Shown here: positions 40,881-50,764 of the stretch, piece by piece
How positions within the stretch are numbered: the first letter of the stretch is position 1
Layout of the letters: the number at the start of each line of letters is the position of its first letter
NCBI RefSeq assembly: GCF_004116625.1
Contig: NZ_NXIE01000006.1
Location: forward strand, 1 to 64,000
Length of the DNA stretch: 64,000 nucleotides
Direction of reading: 5' to 3'
Origin: Halarcobacter mediterraneus
Lineage (GTDB): Bacteria > Campylobacterota > Campylobacteria > Campylobacterales > Arcobacteraceae
The notes under the pieces: generated by a model
Told to the model about the DNA's origin: nothing
The model's input: the letters and a program-made list of their open reading frames with translations, nothing else
The model's database searches: none
Made by a program: the position numbers and the translations under genes

Positions 40881-41861
40881 TTAGATTGGTAATACTCTAA
40901 TATTTTCATCAACTTTTTGCTTAAGTACAGATTCAATAGCATATAAAGTTCCTGTATCACCTGATGCACAACCATTACAAGCACCTAAGTATCTAATATA
41001 TAAATCATAGAAAGGAATATTTTCTTTAATATCAATGATTTCCATATTTCCACCATCCATCATTAACATTGGTCTAATTTCACTATCTAATACTTCATCT
41101 ATTACTTTAATTCTTTGAACTATAGTCATTTTATCAAAAGTTGATTGACCCGCTGCACTTGCATCAGCAGCTTCTTTTAATTTTTCTTGTTCCATTTCTG
41201 CCCTTACATCATTTAATATATCAACTAGGTAGATGTCTTTTTCTTCATGACCACCTGGCTTGATACATGACTTACAGAATGCTCCTGCTTTTGTATAATC
41301 AGTGATTTCTTCAACAGATTTTAAATCATTTAATTTAATTACTTCTTGAATAGTTCCTAAAGTTACCCTTGCACACTCACAAATAATTACTTCTGTTTCA
41401 AAAGACTCCATATCTACACCTTTATATGTAGCAGCAGCTTTTTTAATAACATCATAAGCCATTACAGAACAGTGCATTTTTTGAGGAGGAACAGCTGGAG
41501 TATTAGGGTCATCTCTTAAAGCTTTTTCAACATCAATATTTGTAATTTTAACAGCCTCATCAACTGTTTTACCTTCACATAATTCAGCCATAGCATCAGA
41601 AGAAGCAATTGCAGTACCGCAACCAAAAGATTTAAATTTTGATTCTAAAATCTTATTTGTACCTTCTTCAATACACCAATAAAGTCTTACTGCATCACCA
41701 CATGATTCTGCACCAAAGTCAGCAATAATTAGTTTTCCACCTAACTCTTTTGCTCTTTCTTCAGTAATCTCACCTTGATGAGTTGGGTCATCCATTCTTC
41801 TAATAACTTGATTTGAGTATTCATCCCAAATTGAACCGCTTATTAAATCATTTTTTGCCAT
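40881..41861 (-). CDS. nifU: NIF-type iron-sulfur scaffold protein NifU
   Basis: 326 residues with the three NifU parts. The N-terminal IscU-like scaffold has GAESCGDAVRLYWCIEE and KSFGCGTAIASSDAMAELCEG. The central Fer2_BFD-type 2Fe-2S domain has ICECARVTLGTI and FCKSCIKPGGH. The C-terminal Nfu domain has GACNGCASGDTGTLYAIESVL. It assembles iron-sulfur clusters with NifS, 18 bp upstream, on the same strand. In Campylobacterota this NIF system serves general cluster assembly, not only nitrogenase. Confidence 0.95.
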   Translation of the reverse strand: MAKNDLISGSIWDEYSNQVIRRMDDPTHQGEITEERAKELGGKLIIADFGAESCGDAVRLYWCIEEGTNKILESKFKSFGCGTAIASSDAMAELCEGKTVDEAVKITNIDVEKALRDDPNTPAVPPQKMHCSVMAYDVIKKAAATYKGVDMESFETEVIICECARVTLGTIQEVIKLNDLKSVEEITDYTKAGAFCKSCIKPGGHEEKDIYLVDILNDVRAEMEQEKLKEAADASAAGQSTFDKMTIVQRIKVIDEVLDSEIRPMLMMDGGNMEIIDIKENIPFYDLYIRYLGACNGCASGDTGTLYAIESVLKQKVDENIRVLPI

Positions 41862-43091: not shown

Positions 43092-43162
43092 TTACATTTT
43101 AACACTTTATTATTACATATTTTAGTGTTGTTCCTAATTAAATCGCGTAATTATATTTTAAA

Positions 43163-43181
43163 TAGGATAAAAAGAGTCTTA
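43163..43181. promoter_or_regulatory. Operator-like element TAGGAY-N7-GTCYTA in the nifS/ABC gap
   Basis: TAGGATAAAAAGAGTCTTA followed by ATTAAAAAA. The same architecture with the same tail occurs before sufB at 45531. It lies 8 bp upstream of the nifS -10 box, covering its -35 region, and about 90 bp before the ABC binding-protein start. Its symmetry is partial (4 of 6 arm pairs). Read as a shared regulator site; the regulator is not in the window. Confidence 0.5.
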
Positions 43182-43270
43182 ATTAAAAAATCTAGCTATT
43201 TTTAATTAATTCTAATAAAAAAATAAGCTTCTTATGAGATAATATAAAAAAATTTTAAAGGTTATTACTT

Positions 43271-44080
43271 ATGTTAAGAAAAGTTTTAATGACATTATTT
43301 GTACCATTTATCTTGGTTTTATTGTCAGGTTGTAATGAGGATTCTTCAAAAAAACAAGAAGAAAAAGAAGTATTAAAAGTTGGAATGGAGTTAGCATATC
43401 CACCATTTGAAATGAGTGATAAAGATGGAACTCCATCTGGTGTTTCTGTTGACTTTGCTAAAGCTTTAGGAGACTATTTAGGACGAAAAGTAGTTATTGA
43501 AAATATTGCATGGGATGGTCTTATTCCATCACTTAAAACTGGTAAAATTGATTTAATTATTTCTTCAATGACAATAACTGAAGAGAGAAAAAAGTCTATT
43601 GATTTTTCTACTCCATACGCAAGAACATCACTTGCAATTTTAGCAAATAAAAATTCTGAAGTAAAATCAATTGAAGATTTAGATAAAGAAGGGAAAAAAA
43701 TAGCTGTAAAAAAAGGTTCTACAGGTCATGTATATGCAAAAGACAATCTAAAAAATGCTGAAATTTTAGTATTTGATAAAGAAGCAGCTTGTGTTTTAGA
43801 GGTTGTACAAGGAAAAGCTGATGGTTTTTTATATGATCAATTAACTATTTATAGAAATTATGCTCAGCATAAGGATACAACAGTTGCTCTTTTAAAACCT
43901 TTCCAAAAGGATTCTGAACATTGGGGTGTTGCTCTAAGACAAAATGATCCAATAAAAAAACAAGTTGATGAATTTATAAAAAAAGCAAAAGAGGATGGAA
44001 CTTTTGATTCATTTGCAAAAAAACATTTAACTCAAGCAAAAAAAACATTTGATGAGTTAGGTGTTCCATTTTTCTTTTAG
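43271..44080 (+). CDS. Polar amino-acid ABC transporter substrate-binding lipoprotein
   Basis: 269 residues with a lipoprotein signal ending LLSGC (Cys21). The family-3 solute-binding fold is shown by LKVGMELAYPPFEM, GVSVDFAKALGDYLG, LIPSLKTGKIDLIISSMTIT and DFSTPYARTSLAIL. Typical ligands are polar amino acids including cystine. Its place between nifS and suf fits cystine supply, but that is inference. The permease follows; no ATP-binding subunit is present. Confidence 0.88.
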   Translation: MLRKVLMTLFVPFILVLLSGCNEDSSKKQEEKEVLKVGMELAYPPFEMSDKDGTPSGVSVDFAKALGDYLGRKVVIENIAWDGLIPSLKTGKIDLIISSMTITEERKKSIDFSTPYARTSLAILANKNSEVKSIEDLDKEGKKIAVKKGSTGHVYAKDNLKNAEILVFDKEAACVLEVVQGKADGFLYDQLTIYRNYAQHKDTTVALLKPFQKDSEHWGVALRQNDPIKKQVDEFIKKAKEDGTFDSFAKKHLTQAKKTFDELGVPFFF

Positions 44081-44086
44081 GACTAA

Positions 44087-44881
44087 ATTATAAAATTAAA
44101 AAATTTATTTATTCAAGAAATTAATGTAAAAAAAGGTAAAAAACTTTCGCGAGTTTCTTACCTTTTTAATTTAGTTCTTCTTTTCTTAATTGTTGGATTA
44201 AGCATATATTTTATGTTTAAGAATATTACATATACTTTTAACTGGCAAAGTGTCTATGAATATAAACAAAAATTTATAGATGGCTTTATTATGACAATTA
44301 TCATATCTTTTTTTGCGCTTATTTTAAGCTTTTTAATTGGCTTATTTTTTGCTTATGGACAAAATTCAAAGTTTATTTTACTTAGATTTTTTTCAAGATT
44401 TTATATAGAAATAATTAGAGGAACACCTCTTTTAGTTCAAATTCTAATTTTCTTTTATGTATTTGCAAATAACTTAGGTTTTGAAAATCGATATATTGTA
44501 GGAACATTTATTTTAGCAATCTTTGCAGGAGCCTATGTAAGTGAAATAATTAGAGCGGCAATTGAATCTATTGATTATGAACAATATGAAACAGCTTTAA
44601 GTTTAGGTATGACTAACTATCAAATGTATAGATACGTAGTTTTCCCACAAGCTTTTAAAAGAATGTTACCTGCTTTAACTGGACAATTTGCAACAATAAT
44701 AAAAGATTCTTCTTTATTATCAATTATTTCAATTAGTGAGTTTACAATGAATGCACAAGAAGTTAACGCTTATACTTATTCTACTTTAGAAAGTTATATT
44801 CCTCTTGCAATTGGATACTTATTATTAACCTACCCTATTTCTTATTATACAAATAGTTTAGAGAAGAAAATCAAAAAATAA
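44087..44881 (+). CDS. Polar amino-acid ABC transporter permease, probable ATT/ATA start
   Basis: The first ATG is at 44213, but the frame is open back to 44087 and the upstream 42 codons contain a full membrane helix (YLFNLVLLFLIVGLSIYFMF). The only ribosome site is AGGA at 44079-44082, placing the start at ATT 44087 or ATA 44090; no ATG, GTG or TTG is in frame upstream of 44213. The HisM/GlnP signature EIIRGTPLLVQILIFFYVF and the EAA-type loop YEQYETALSLGMTNYQMYRY are complete. It works with the lipoprotein; no ATPase is adjacent. The 3' end overlaps a GNAT gene by 11 bp. Confidence 0.85.
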   Translation: MIKLKNLFIQEINVKKGKKLSRVSYLFNLVLLFLIVGLSIYFMFKNITYTFNWQSVYEYKQKFIDGFIMTIIISFFALILSFLIGLFFAYGQNSKFILLRFFSRFYIEIIRGTPLLVQILIFFYVFANNLGFENRYIVGTFILAIFAGAYVSEIIRAAIESIDYEQYETALSLGMTNYQMYRYVVFPQAFKRMLPALTGQFATIIKDSSLLSIISISEFTMNAQEVNAYTYSTLESYIPLAIGYLLLTYPISYYTNSLEKKIKK

Positions 44882-45389
44882 GAGTTTTTTGCATTTGCTC
44901 ATATAAAAACTTGTACTCTTCTTCTTTAAGTCTATTTTGATAAGTCATTAAAAGTAGTTCTAGTTTTTCATCTTCTTTTCTAAATGGTATTTGATAATGT
45001 GTATATTCATTTAAAACAAAGCCAAATCTCTCATAAAATTTTAATCTTCTTTGTGAAGTTTCATCTTTTATTGGTTCTATTTCTAAAACAATATTATCAT
45101 TAGTTTTTATAAATTCATTTAAAACTTTTGAACCATAAGACTTACCTCTTAATTGATTATCTACTGCAAAATGTTCTAAAAAAGTATAACCTTTAATATT
45201 CCAATAAAAAACTATAGCAACTAACTTATTTCCATCAAGGTAACAACTAGCTTTATAAGCATTATTTCTTAAAATTTTTTTGTGTTCTTCTAAAGTTCTT
45301 CTTTCTTCCTTAGGAAAAGAGTTTAAATAAATCTCCCAGGCTTTATCAAAATAATTATCTTTAGTTTCATTTAGATATATTAATTGCAT
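44871..45389 (-). CDS. GNAT-family N-acetyltransferase
   Basis: 172 residues. GNAT motifs: FLEHFAVDNQLRGKSYGSKVL for acetyl-CoA binding (a variant R/QxxGxG/A) and RRLKFYERFGFVLNEY for motif B. Substrate unknown. Convergent with and overlapping the permease by 11 bp, and divergent from sufB across a 180-bp regulatory gap. Confidence 0.82.
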   Translation of the reverse strand: MQLIYLNETKDNYFDKAWEIYLNSFPKEERRTLEEHKKILRNNAYKASCYLDGNKLVAIVFYWNIKGYTFLEHFAVDNQLRGKSYGSKVLNEFIKTNDNIVLEIEPIKDETSQRRLKFYERFGFVLNEYTHYQIPFRKEDEKLELLLMTYQNRLKEEEYKFLYEQMQKTLIF

Positions 45390-45530
45390 TTTTTTCCTTT
45401 TTTTATAAAAAGAATCTACTCTAAAGTGCCTTATAAGTCCATTTTAGTAAAATTGAAACTAAATTTAAAGTAATATATTAATTAAACACTTATACATTTT
45501 TTTAATGAACATATGATAAATTTAAACAAA

Positions 45531-45549
45531 TAGGACAATTTTAGTCCTA
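45531..45549. promoter_or_regulatory. Operator-like inverted repeat upstream of sufB
   Basis: TAGGAC-AATTTTA-GTCCTA: perfect 6-bp arms, 7-bp spacer, followed by ATTAAAAA. It is 21 bp before the sufB start and just downstream of a likely -10 (TATGAT, 45512-45517), so a bound protein would block transcription; as RNA it could also form a small hairpin in the 5' leader. The related element is at 43163. Confidence 0.6.
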
Positions 45550-45569: not shown

Positions 45570-47006
45570 ATGAGTGATAACAAACATTTAAAAGAGATAC
45601 TTAAACAAGATTATAAACTTGGATTTGAAACACTTGTAGAAAGTGATACTTTTCCACCAGGTTTAAATGAAGATGTTATTAAAGCAATCTCTAAAAAGAA
45701 AAATGAACCTGAATGGTTACTTGAATTTAGACTAAAAGCTTATAAAGCATGGCTAAAGATGGAAGAACCAAATTGGGCACATTTAAAATACCCAAAAATA
45801 GACTATCAAGATATCGCATATTATAGTGCTCCTAAAAAAGCTTTAGACTCTTTAGATGAAGTTGATCCAGAAATCCTAAAAACCTATGAAAAATTAGGAA
45901 TTCCTCTAGAAGAGCAAAAAATGCTTGCGGGTGTTGCTGTTGATGCAGTTTTTGATTCTGTTTCAGTAAAAACTACTTATCAAGAAGAGTTAGAAAAGTT
46001 AGGTATTATTTTCTGTTCAATTTCTGAAGCAGCACATTCTCATCCTGAAATTTTAAAAAAATATCTAGCTTCAGTTGTAAGTAGAAATGACAACTATTTT
46101 GCTGCTTTAAATAGTGCTGTATTTACAGATGGAAGTTTTGTTTATATTCCACCAAATACTAGATGCCCAATGGAGCTTTCAACTTATTTTAGAATAAATG
46201 CCTTAAATACAGGACAATTTGAAAGAACTTTAATAATCTGTGATGAAAACTCTTATGTTTCATATAATGAAGGCTGTTCTGCACCAATGAGAGATGAAAG
46301 ACAACTTCACGCAGCAGTTGTTGAACTTGTAGCACTAGATAATGCACAAATAAAATACTCTACAATACAAAACTGGTATCCAGGGGATGAAGAAGGTAAA
46401 GGTGGTATTTTAAACTTTGTTACAAAAAGAGGTTTATGTAAAGGAGAAAACTCTAAAATATCATGGACTCAAGTTGAAACGGGTTCTAGTTTAACATGGA
46501 AATATCCTTCATGTATCTTAAAAGGTAATAACTCTGTGGGAGAATTTTATTCTGTAGCAATTTCTAGCCGAGCCCAACAAGCTGATACTGGAAGTAAAAT
46601 GGTACATTTAGGAGAAAATACGAAATCAACTATTATCTCAAAAGGTATTTCTGCTATGACAGGAGTAAATGCCTATAGAGGGTTAGTAAGTGTAGGTAAA
46701 AATGCAAAAAATGCAAGAAATATTTCAGAATGTGACTCACTTTTAATAGGACATAAATGTAAAGCTCATACCTACCCATACCATGAAATTAAGAACTCAA
46801 GTGCACACATTGAACATGAAGCAACTACTTCAAAGATTTCAGAAGAACAACTTTTTTATCTTAATCAAAGAGGTATTGACGAAGAAGATGCTATTGCAAT
46901 GATTGTAAATGGATTCTGTAAAGAAGTTTTAAAAGAGTTACCAATGGAATTTGCCGCTGAAGCTAAAGAGTTATTAAATATCTCTTTAGAAGGAAGTGTG
47001 GGATAA
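45570..47006 (+). CDS. sufB: Fe-S cluster assembly protein SufB
   Basis: 478 residues. SufB is the scaffold of the SufBC2D complex. [39 protein letters not shown] and [11 protein letters not shown] with conserved Cys are typical, and the C-terminus has [20 protein letters not shown]. First gene of the suf operon, with an AAGAAGG ribosome site. The operon promoter region carries the TAGGAC inverted repeat. Confidence 0.97.
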
Positions 47007-47040: not shown

Positions 47041-47781
47041 ATGTTAGATATTAAAGATTTAAAAGTAACTATAGATAATAAAGAAATTTTAAAAGGTCTA
47101 AACTTAAATATAAAACCAGGTGAAATCCATGTACTAATGGGACAAAATGGTGCAGGGAAATCAACTTTAGTAAAAACAATAAGTGATCACTATGACTGTG
47201 AGGTAACAAATGGTTCTATTACTTATAAAAATAAGGATTTATTAGAGCTTGATGTATCACAAAGGGCAAAGGAAGGTATTTTCTTGAGTTTTCAAAATCC
47301 AGTTGAAGTGCCAGGGGTTAATAATAGTTATTTTTTAAAAACTATTGTAAATGAAAAAAGAAAATATGAAAATCAAGAAGAATTAGATGCAATGGGCTTT
47401 TTAAAATATACTAAAGAAGAACTTGCTAAATTTGATATTGACAAGTCACTTTTACAAAGAGATTTAAATGATGGTTTTTCAGGTGGAGAGAAAAAAAGAA
47501 ATGAATTAATTCAATTATTACTTTTAAAACCTGATTTAATTATGCTTGATGAAATTGATTCTGGACTTGATGTGGATGCAATAAAAACTGTTGCTAAAGT
47601 AATTAATAATTTACTTGAGGATAAAAGTAAGTCTTTATTAATGATTACGCACTATGATAAATTATTAAATCTTGTAAAACCAGATTATGTACATATTTTA
47701 AAAGATGGAAAAATAGTAAAAACAGGAGACTATACTTTAGCTCAACAACTTGATAGTGTTGGGTTTCAAGGATTGGAGTAA
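47041..47781 (+). CDS. sufC: Fe-S cluster assembly ATPase SufC
   Basis: 246 residues, ABC-type ATPase. Walker A GQNGAGKSTLVK, the signature NDGFSGGEKKRNELIQLLL, Walker B LIMLDEIDSGLDVDA and the switch His in ITHYDKLL are all present. SufC powers the SufBCD scaffold. 34 bp after sufB; sufD starts 2 bp later. Confidence 0.97.
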   Translation: MLDIKDLKVTIDNKEILKGLNLNIKPGEIHVLMGQNGAGKSTLVKTISDHYDCEVTNGSITYKNKDLLELDVSQRAKEGIFLSFQNPVEVPGVNNSYFLKTIVNEKRKYENQEELDAMGFLKYTKEELAKFDIDKSLLQRDLNDGFSGGEKKRNELIQLLLLKPDLIMLDEIDSGLDVDAIKTVAKVINNLLEDKSKSLLMITHYDKLLNLVKPDYVHILKDGKIVKTGDYTLAQQLDSVGFQGLE

Positions 47782-47783
47782 TT

Positions 47784-48815
47784 ATGAAATTAATAGATTT
47801 AAAAGATATAAAATTTCCAACAAAAAAAGATGAAGACTTTAGAAAAATAAATTTGAGCCCTATTTTAAAAAAGGAGTTTGAATATTCAAAAGAGTATAAA
47901 TTAGATTTAGAATTACAAGAGAGTAAATCTATTTCAAGTAGAACAAATGAATTATTAAAAATAAATGAGAGATTAAATACAAAAAACTATGAATTAAATA
48001 TTCAAGAAGATAGCAATGAGCCAATTATCATTGTACATAATTTAGAAAATGAAAATAGTATAAATACAAATTCATTAAAAATAAATGTTGCAGAAAATAT
48101 AAAAGCTTCTATAATAGAAATATTTGTTAATAAAAAAGAAAAAAATATTTACACAGTAAATAGAGAATTAAATTTAGCAAAGAATTCTAAATTAGAGTAT
48201 TTAAAAATACAAGACTTTTCAGAAGACACTTCTTTTTTAATTAATTATCTTAATCATTTAGATGATAATTCAAAATTAAATCATACAAACTTTGAAATAG
48301 GAAAAGGTTTTTCTCTTTCAATATATGATACAAATTTAGAAAAAGAAAATGCAGCTTTTAATATAAATGGTCTTGTAAAACTTTATGAAAGTGCAGATTC
48401 TTCATCAATATTTAATACAAATCATGAAAACAAAAAAAATACTAGTGATATAAAATATAAACACATTTTAAATGATAATTCAAAAGCTGTTTTTGAAGCT
48501 ATATCAAGAGTTGATGAAAAAGCATTTTTTTCTCAAGTACATCAAAACTCAGATACTATTTTATTAAGTGATGAAGCTGCAATATTTGCAAAACCCCATT
48601 TAGAAATAAATATTGATGAACTAGAAGCTAGTCATGGTGCTACAACTGGTTCTTTAAATAAAGACCAACTTCTTTATTTACAATCAAGAGGTATAGATGA
48701 AAAACTTGCAAAACAAATTTTATTAAAAGCTGTAGAAAATGAGATTATTGAGACTATCTTAGATGAAAAAGTAAAAGAGTTTATAAAAGAGTATAAAAGG
48801 GATAATTATGTTTAA
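47784..48815 (+). CDS. sufD: Fe-S cluster assembly protein SufD
   Basis: 343 residues, shorter than E. coli SufD (about 420), with low similarity in the N-terminal part. The beta-helix half and the C-terminal end HLEINIDELEASHGATTGSLN with DQLLYLQSRGIDEKLAKQIL match SufD and mirror SufB. SufD supports iron acquisition in the SufBC2D complex. Overlaps sufS by 8 bp. Confidence 0.92.
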   Translation: MKLIDLKDIKFPTKKDEDFRKINLSPILKKEFEYSKEYKLDLELQESKSISSRTNELLKINERLNTKNYELNIQEDSNEPIIIVHNLENENSINTNSLKINVAENIKASIIEIFVNKKEKNIYTVNRELNLAKNSKLEYLKIQDFSEDTSFLINYLNHLDDNSKLNHTNFEIGKGFSLSIYDTNLEKENAAFNINGLVKLYESADSSSIFNTNHENKKNTSDIKYKHILNDNSKAVFEAISRVDEKAFFSQVHQNSDTILLSDEAAIFAKPHLEINIDELEASHGATTGSLNKDQLLYLQSRGIDEKLAKQILLKAVENEIIETILDEKVKEFIKEYKRDNYV

Positions 48816-49989
48816 AGAAGATTTTCCTTATTTTAAAAATAGTGAAATTACATATTTAGATAATGCTGCAACAACACAAAAACCCAAAAGTGTTATAAAT
48901 GCAGAAATGGATTATTATGAAAACTATTGTGCTAATACTCATAGAAGTTCTTTTGGAGATGCAAACAAAGCAACTCTAAATTATGAAAATGCAAGAGTAA
49001 GCTTACAAAAATTTATTAATGCACCTAAAAAAGAAGAAATAATCTTTACAAAAGGTGTTACAGAATCTATAAATTTTATTGCTAATTCTTTTGCAAAAAA
49101 GTTTGAAAAAGTGATAATTTCATCGTTAGAACATCATTCAAATATTACCCCTTGGCATATGCAAGGACGTTCTTTAAGTAAAGGACTTGAAGTTGTATCT
49201 TGTAATGAAAATTTAGATTTTGATTTTAGAGATTATGAAAATATTTTAAAAGAAAATCCAAACTCTTTCGTAAGTATTACTCATATTTCAAATGCTTTTG
49301 GAAAAATCCATGATATAAAAGCAATTATCCAACTTGCACATAAATACAATAGTGTAGTTATGATTGATGCTGCCCAAAGTTTAGCCCATATGAGCGTTGA
49401 TGTTCAAGATTTAGATGTTGATTTTTTTGCAATGTCAGGACATAAAACTTTTGGGCCAACGGGTGTTGGGGCAATTTATATAAAAGAAATTTTTCTAAAA
49501 GAAGTTGATACCTATCAAACAGGTGGAGCAACAATAAATGAAGTTGATTTTGATTCTTCAACTTTACTTGATTCTCCTTATAAATTTGAAGCAGGAACTC
49601 AAAATATTGCAGGAGTTATTGGTTTTGCAAAAGCTTTAGATTATCTTTCAAATATTGGTTATGAAAAAATAGAGAAACAAGAACTTATTTTATATGAATA
49701 TTTAGATGAACAATTAAGTAAATTACCAAATATAAAGTTTTATAATACTATTGAAAACTCTATAGGTAGTAGAAGTTTTAACTTTAAAAATATTAGTCAC
49801 GATGATATTGGAATTTTAGTAGATAAAATGAAAGTAGCTTTAAGAGTAGGACATCATTGTGCTCAACCTATAATGAAACAATTAAATATAAAAGGAACAA
49901 TAAGAGTTTCTCTTGCCTTTTATAATACAAAAGAAGATATAGACAAGCTTATTAAAGCTCTTAAAAAAGCTTTAAAAATGTTAGCATAA
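48808..49989 (+). CDS. sufS: Cysteine desulfurase SufS
   Basis: 393 residues, group II cysteine desulfurase. The PLP lysine lies in FFAMSGHKTFGPTGVGAIY, the start YLDNAATTQKPKSV is characteristic, and the catalytic cysteine is in RVGHHCAQPIMKQL. It provides persulfide to SufE. Together with nifS this gives the organism two desulfurases of different groups within 6 kb. Confidence 0.96.
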   Translation: MFKEDFPYFKNSEITYLDNAATTQKPKSVINAEMDYYENYCANTHRSSFGDANKATLNYENARVSLQKFINAPKKEEIIFTKGVTESINFIANSFAKKFEKVIISSLEHHSNITPWHMQGRSLSKGLEVVSCNENLDFDFRDYENILKENPNSFVSITHISNAFGKIHDIKAIIQLAHKYNSVVMIDAAQSLAHMSVDVQDLDVDFFAMSGHKTFGPTGVGAIYIKEIFLKEVDTYQTGGATINEVDFDSSTLLDSPYKFEAGTQNIAGVIGFAKALDYLSNIGYEKIEKQELILYEYLDEQLSKLPNIKFYNTIENSIGSRSFNFKNISHDDIGILVDKMKVALRVGHHCAQPIMKQLNIKGTIRVSLAFYNTKEDIDKLIKALKKALKMLA

Positions 49990-49997
49990 GGAATAAA

Positions 49998-50408
49998 ATG
50001 ACAAGTATTGAAAAAAGAGTTCAAGATATAAAAGAAGATTTAGACTTTTTTGAAGATGAATTACAAAAATATGAATATATTATTGATTTAGGTAAAAAAC
50101 TTGAAGATCTAGAAGAAAAATACAAAACACCTGAAAATATTGTTCATGGTTGTACATCTCAAGTTTGGTTAGTTTGTGAAAAGAAAGATAATAAACTTTT
50201 TTTCAAAGGAACTTCTGATGCTGTTATTGTAAAAGGTTTAGTTTATATTATTTTAAATATTTTTTCAAACTCAAGTATTGAAGAGTTAAAAGAAGTTAAT
50301 ATGGATATAGTTTATGAACTAGGTCTTAGTGAAGTAATTACTCCAAATAGACAAAGTGGAGTAATTGGAATGATTAAAAAGATTAAAGAGTATGCTTTAA
50401 AAGCATAA
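49998..50408 (+). CDS. sufE: Sulfur acceptor protein SufE
   Basis: 136 residues. The acceptor Cys is in NIVHGCTSQVWLVCE, the typical SufE loop, and the rest (DLGKKLEDLEEKYKTPEN; LGLSEVITPNRQSGVIGMI) fits the family. It receives sulfur from SufS and passes it to SufB. 8 bp after sufS. Confidence 0.94.
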   Translation: MTSIEKRVQDIKEDLDFFEDELQKYEYIIDLGKKLEDLEEKYKTPENIVHGCTSQVWLVCEKKDNKLFFKGTSDAVIVKGLVYIILNIFSNSSIEELKEVNMDIVYELGLSEVITPNRQSGVIGMIKKIKEYALKA

Positions 50409-50419
50409 AAGGATTTTAA

Positions 50420-50764
50420 ATGTCACTTTTAGAAAAAAAAGATGAAATAGAAGAAGAAGTAATAAAAAGATTAAAATCAGTATATGATCCAGAAATTCCA
50501 GTAAATATTTATGATTTAGGATTAATATATAAAATTGATTTTGAAGAAAAAAATAACTATTTATTTGCAACAATAGAAATGACACTAACCTCTCCAGCTT
50601 GTCCTGTTGCAGAGAGTTTAGTAGAACAAGTAAAATATGTAACACAAACAGTTGATGAAATAGATGAAGCTTATGTTCATCTAGTTTTTAACCCTCCATG
50701 GGAACCTTCTATGATAAGTGAAGATGGGAAAGATATAATGGCTGCATCAGGAGCACATATTTAA
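50420..50764 (+). CDS. sufT: MIP18/DUF59-family Fe-S maturation protein (SufT-like)
   Basis: 114 residues. The DUF59 signature KSVYDPEIPVNIYDLGLIY is followed by TLTSPACPVAESLVEQV and VHLVFNPPWEPSMIS. SufT-type proteins aid delivery of Fe-S clusters to target enzymes and are commonly the last gene of suf operons, as here. The Cys in PACP is the conserved one of the family. Confidence 0.92.
   Translation: MSLLEKKDEIEEEVIKRLKSVYDPEIPVNIYDLGLIYKIDFEEKNNYLFATIEMTLTSPACPVAESLVEQVKYVTQTVDEIDEAYVHLVFNPPWEPSMISEDGKDIMAASGAHI

Follow-up and report, generated by a model that had tools for sequence, protein, structure and literature searches.

Two operators in the 64-kb window (the whole stretch of Halarcobacter mediterraneus DNA that was analysed), one before nifSU and the other before suf, appear from comparison of related genomes to be a single switch that is conserved over nearly the whole Campylobacter class. 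They very probably belong to one Fe-S-homeostasis regulon, whose regulator is most likely a cluster-loaded repressor, the Rrf2-family protein referred to here as Rrf2(rpsO). A shared element joining nifSU and suf had been proposed in a first-pass annotation of this DNA, and conservation of the site across both family and class makes the case stronger than was originally claimed. The features concerned are collected in Table 1.

Table 1. Coordinates of the operators, of the genes and promoter elements around them, and of the two Rrf2 genes of H. mediterraneus
Feature	Position	Strand	Remarks and basis
Operator 1, TAGGATAAAAAGAGTCTTA	43163..43181	n/a	Exact pattern match; read toward nifS, TAAGACTCTTTTTATCCTA
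Operator 2, TAGGACAATTTTAGTCCTA	45531..45549	n/a	Perfect 6-bp arms; 20 bp 5' of the sufB ATG
Putative nifSU -10 box, TATAAT	43150..43155	-	7 bp downstream of operator 1; sequence and conserved spacing
Possible sufB -10 box, TATGAT	45512..45517	+	Sequence reading only
nifS, cysteine desulfurase, 398 aa	41880..43076	-	Candidate regulated gene; ORF and retrieved orthologs
nifU, Fe-S scaffold, 326 aa, in nifS operon	40881..41861	-	ORF; family from sequence reading
sufB, 478 aa, first gene of suf operon	45570..47006	+	ORF and orthologs
sufC, sufD, sufS, sufE-like and DUF59/SufT-like genes, remainder of suf operon	47041..50764	+	ORFs; families from sequence reading
Amino-acid ABC transporter, substrate-binding protein and permease, divergent from nifS	43271..44881	+	SBP_bac_3 match
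Rrf2(rpsO), 134 aa, directly downstream of rpsO	C2:220741-221142; L018:1495-1899	- (genome)	Three Cys
Second Rrf2, CymR-like, between metY (O-acetylhomoserine sulfhydrylase type) and cysK	L017:1372-1785; C3:419637		Cysteine-free

Both elements have the TAGGAY-N7-GTCYTA arms originally described for them, they are the only two exact matches to that pattern in the window, and a recount agrees that they share 21 of 27 aligned bases. Alignment of sites extends the element to 25 bp, AAATAGGAC-N7-GTCCTATTT. The AT-rich tail ATTAAAAA, which had raised the worry of an inflated match, belongs in part to the outer arm (AAA/TTT) of this longer element, which is AT-rich and conserved.

A genome-wide scan, which the first-pass annotation had called for, located the exact pattern at just three places in the 2.83 Mb genome, upstream of nifS, sufB and mrp/apbC, all of which are Fe-S biogenesis genes; the control, the same pattern read backwards, gave no exact match. 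The third site (C3:222141, locus L001) is situated 57 bp upstream of mrp, the gene for an Mrp/ApbC-type ATPase and Fe-S carrier. Matches with one mismatch fall nearly all within ORFs, and a relaxed pattern revealed no convincing additional target across the same genome; the looser matches, most of them in ORFs, were treated as chance and set aside as targets. One of them, at C1:31367 (L004), was retained because the corresponding gene in relatives has an exact site in front of it (L070, L072, L080). The gene, before which the operator-like site is conserved across the genus, encodes a protein of 249 aa (L004:674-1423) without a Pfam or NCBIfam match, which is possibly a new regulon member, and it is followed by a rubrerythrin-domain gene.

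Across 104 Arcobacteraceae genomes strand hits to the exact pattern numbered 309, as opposed to 20 for the reversed control, a 15-fold excess, and at least one exact site is present in 92 of the 104. Conservation before orthologous genes, likewise proposed as a check, was surveyed in the 260 bp 5' of each target in 30 genomes over 20 genera, using the relaxed form TARGAY-N7-RTCYTA. Among the sampled genomes this form occurs before nifS in 21 of 28 (26 of 28 with at most one mismatch), before sufB in 15 of 18 (18 of 18) and before mrp in 24 of 30 (26 of 30). A Markov model predicts 0-0.05 exact occurrences and 0.3-0.45 with at most one mismatch; the reversed control is partly inflated in this survey, because ATCCTA-N7-TATAAT looks like the reversed motif. 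Exact copies of the motif are also found inside a conserved CTP synthase-like gene (L033, L055, L084) in Aliarcobacter-type genomes, but these are coding sequence, were rejected as operators, and probably reflect coding constraint.

The site also precedes nifS in named records of Halarcobacter, Poseidonibacter, Aliarcobacter and Sulfurospirillum, but is absent before nifS in two Helicobacter records, and 50 loci bearing the labels of other phyla yielded no match, even with one mismatch allowed. In one genome of a further family, taken to be Campylobacteraceae (G105, family f3), AAGGATAAAAAATATCCTA is placed 15 bp before nifS, and in families other than Arcobacteraceae generally the nifS site is mostly 15-42 bp 5' of the start codon. 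In several of these families mrp lacks the site.

Exact sites in relatives reveal further candidate members: genes for a redoxin-family peroxidase (read as Tpx), a di-haem cytochrome c peroxidase, the Fe/Mn superoxide dismutase SodB, hemerythrin-PAS proteins, and a flavodoxin encoded beside a DUF59 Fe-S assembly protein. Judged from these gene families, the target set reads as Fe-S assembly together with the defence of Fe-S enzymes. In two lineages (G052 and G102) the rrf2 gene is itself preceded, at 49-55 bp, by an exact site, but none of the 30 close relatives in the upstream survey has one, and autoregulation was rejected as a general rule.

The first-pass annotation had suggested one unseen regulator, perhaps Rrf2/IscR-like, and a search for Rrf2-family genes returned two clear ones in the H. 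mediterraneus genome. Rrf2(rpsO), encoded elsewhere in the genome and unlinked to nif and suf, emerges as the best candidate. It scores above the cut-offs of the Rrf2 family models (PF02082, 101 bits against 30; TIGR00738, 108.5 against 73.3), and below those of the NCBIfam models for IscR (68.2 bits, cut-off 207.55), NsrR (34.2, cut-off 182), CymR (36.9, cut-off 195) and RirA. Among solved structures, it is closest to IscR and to a further Rrf2 regulator (6hsd). Its three cysteines form a pattern, C-x6-C-x7-C, that is invariant in all 41 readable sequences.

The distribution of this gene follows that of the operator. Rrf2(rpsO) was found in 102 of 104 Arcobacteraceae genomes, a few as weak hits only, the exceptions being G038 and G040, a putative second loss. 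In a survey of 397 genomes of the class it was present in 296 of 297 outside Helicobacteraceae, and no ortholog was found in any of 100 Helicobacteraceae, nine of which show weak hits only; this family was assigned from a genome, G118, whose nifS upstream sequence is the same as that in a Helicobacter brantae record. The pattern TARGAY-W7-GTCYTA is not enriched in Helicobacteraceae (11 hits against 28 for the control), whereas the larger Rrf2-bearing families gave 20 against 2, 51 against 2, 37 against 2, 20 against 2 and 18 against 0. Upstream of nifS, 17 of the 22 Rrf2-positive genomes from other families carry a site with no more than one mismatch, against none of six Helicobacteraceae (p=0.0012, unadjusted for relatedness). 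The contrast with Helicobacteraceae is essentially one phylogenetic event, and therefore other genes could share the same distribution.

It is unlikely that the regulon, itself real, answers to a different regulator: either the second, CymR-like Rrf2 or a factor from outside the Rrf2 family that Helicobacteraceae have lost. The CymR-like protein does exist in the H. mediterraneus genome, and the link to Rrf2(rpsO) depends on distribution and on the two autoregulatory sites. However, several site-bearing genomes have Rrf2(rpsO) as their only detected Rrf2 (E<=0.001), the operator has IscR-type spacing that suits an Fe-S Rrf2, and the reading frame of the CymR-like protein is free of cysteine and belongs to a cysteine-synthesis operon. 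That second protein scores 104.4 bits with the NCBIfam CymR model, below the cut-off of 195, and is itself a candidate regulator of cysteine synthesis. On sequence grounds, Rrf2(rpsO) is most likely the regulator of both operators, a choice best supported because of its three invariant cysteines, the phylogenetic match, the occasional autoregulatory site and the IscR-type operator spacing.

Rrf2(rpsO) resembles IscR of E. coli and P. aeruginosa in being an Rrf2 protein with three invariant cysteines, in its proposed control of Fe-S assembly operons (here nifSU, suf and mrp), and in an operator that overlaps the promoter region. The [2Fe-2S] cluster of IscR is held by three Cys and one His, arranged as C-x5-C-x5-C-x2-H. 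The cysteines of Rrf2(rpsO) are spaced by six and seven residues instead of five and five, there is no His at the corresponding place, and in local alignment its third Cys falls at the position of IscR His107. The two operators are alike as 25-bp palindromes with a GAC-N7-GTC core and AT-rich ends, and the published IscR type-1 consensus, ATASYYGACTRWWWYAGTCRRSTAT, has this same length and core (PMC6599224); they differ in their arms, which are TAG/CTA here and SYY/RRS in the type-1 site. IscR is encoded by the first gene of the isc/suf operon that it represses, whereas the gene for Rrf2(rpsO) lies beside rpsO, away from its proposed NIF-type, SUF and mrp targets, and usually lacks an autoregulatory site. 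Rrf2(rpsO) was not filed as IscR, which it fails to match in equivalog score, in Cys/His spacing and in gene context; by analogy, it probably works like IscR, with a putative cluster.

Other Rrf2 systems offer partial parallels. IscR and RirA of Rhodobacter (Iron-Rhodo-box and RirA box) are likewise Rrf2 proteins with a 19-bp palindromic operator over the -35/-10 region, and cluster-bound IscR represses there as is proposed here, but in Rhodobacter IscR there is a single Cys, and most of its targets serve iron uptake and storage. The nitric-oxide sensor NsrR shares the three cysteines and, in some relatives here, hemerythrin-type targets; it differs in that Fe-S assembly genes make up the core targets here, and the score of the NsrR model is far below cut-off. 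The Rrf2-family protein Cj0883c of Campylobacter jejuni is probably the ortholog of Rrf2(rpsO) in that genus, which we presume from gene order, as its gene is next to rpsO. Cj0883 is listed among the putative regulators of C. jejuni with unknown regulon (PMC9426514), and a transposon fitness table for the species includes a gene annotated as Rrf2, CJJ81176_0891, which may be the ortholog (PMC5438104).

The placement of the sites bears on the mode of control. At nifS and mrp the orientation is fixed, as TAAGAC-N7-ATCCTA, and in most genera a -10-like TATAAT or TAGAAT follows 6-7 bp after the site, so the site would cover the -35 region. The claim that operator 1 sits on the -35 region of nifS is thus borne out: it ends 7 bp upstream of TATAAT, a spacing that recurs at nifS and mrp across genera. 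At sufB most genomes have a site 10-33 bp 5' of the start codon, and in some there is a second copy farther upstream. Operator 2 was rightly placed at a spot compatible with repression, possibly just downstream of the putative sufB transcription start. With start sites read from promoter-like sequence, these would all be positions where a bound protein blocks transcription.

We infer from the sites, their conservation and positions, the genes that they precede and their co-distribution with the Rrf2 gene that Rrf2(rpsO) binds them, carries a cluster and represses. In the mechanism proposed, an Fe-S cluster would be held by Cys92, Cys99, Cys107 and a fourth ligand, and the cluster-loaded dimer would bind the 25-bp element and block RNA polymerase, over the -35 region at nifSU and mrp and just after the start at suf. 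Oxygen, peroxide or iron shortage would strip the cluster and lift repression, so that NIF, SUF and Mrp would be produced in concert, and the derepressed set would in relatives also include Tpx, SodB, cytochrome c peroxidase and the hemerythrin proteins.

That the protein is mainly an activator in its cluster-free form, as apo-IscR of E. coli is on suf, seems improbable: such dual behaviour is known for IscR, and apo-IscR activates some genes in a model for R. sphaeroides (PMC4618611), but the sites, with centres around -28 at nifS and mrp and a location past the putative start at sufB, are poorly placed for activation. The idea that the two operators resemble each other by chance, as AT-rich intergenic regions might, has next to nothing left in its favour, for even though two-mismatch versions are no commoner in the window than chance predicts, conservation at orthologous genes in 20 genera and the 309 hits against 20 over 104 genomes exclude it, and show the motif to be far commoner than the random occurrence that had been named as grounds for abandoning it.

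In the open-licence papers searched, no description of this operator or regulon was found. Campylobacterota live as microaerophiles, and the oxygen lability of their Fe-S enzymes is what limits them. On balance we favour a broader reading, held less firmly than the regulon itself, of a class-wide Rrf2 repressor that senses Fe-S and differs from IscR in how its ligands are spaced and in the arms of its operator. With its gene apart from the operons it controls, this repressor would set NIF, SUF and Mrp assembly as one, and in particular lineages the defence against peroxide and superoxide as well. Helicobacteraceae would have lost both the repressor and its operators, and in Campylobacter it would explain how Fe-S biogenesis responds to oxygen. 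Levels of NifS, NifU and Mrp in C. jejuni go up above 100% aerobiosis, co-ordinated with oxidative-stress enzymes, and how oxygen is sensed and the signal relayed is stated to be an open question (PMC5656828). An operator, a target list and a candidate regulator for most of the class make that question directly testable, and Helicobacteraceae provide a natural loss case for the regulon.

Operator 1 lies between the divergent nifS (minus strand) and ABC substrate-binding gene (43271-44080, plus strand), and the first-pass annotation had raised co-control of amino-acid (cystine) uptake as a mere possibility. This part of the proposal is not supported. The element is locked in orientation and spacing to the nifS promoter and persists where nifS has different neighbours, and among the exact-site loci of relatives none was seen beside the substrate-binding gene without nifS; the transporter was therefore rejected as a regulon member. 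The substrate-binding protein scores 164 bits with a Lys/Arg/ornithine model and 150 bits with a cystine model, both below cut-off. No ATPase gene adjoins the transporter genes, which are followed by a GNAT-like gene on the other strand.

Two genome bins labelled Spirochaeta (L313, L314) have a NifS 56% identical to that of Campylobacterota, without the operator, which may reflect transfer or mis-binning. Arcobacteraceae of genera g8 and g9 (G044-G053) encode a diverged NifS, about 48% identical, and have kept the operator in front of it in a TAAGAY form.
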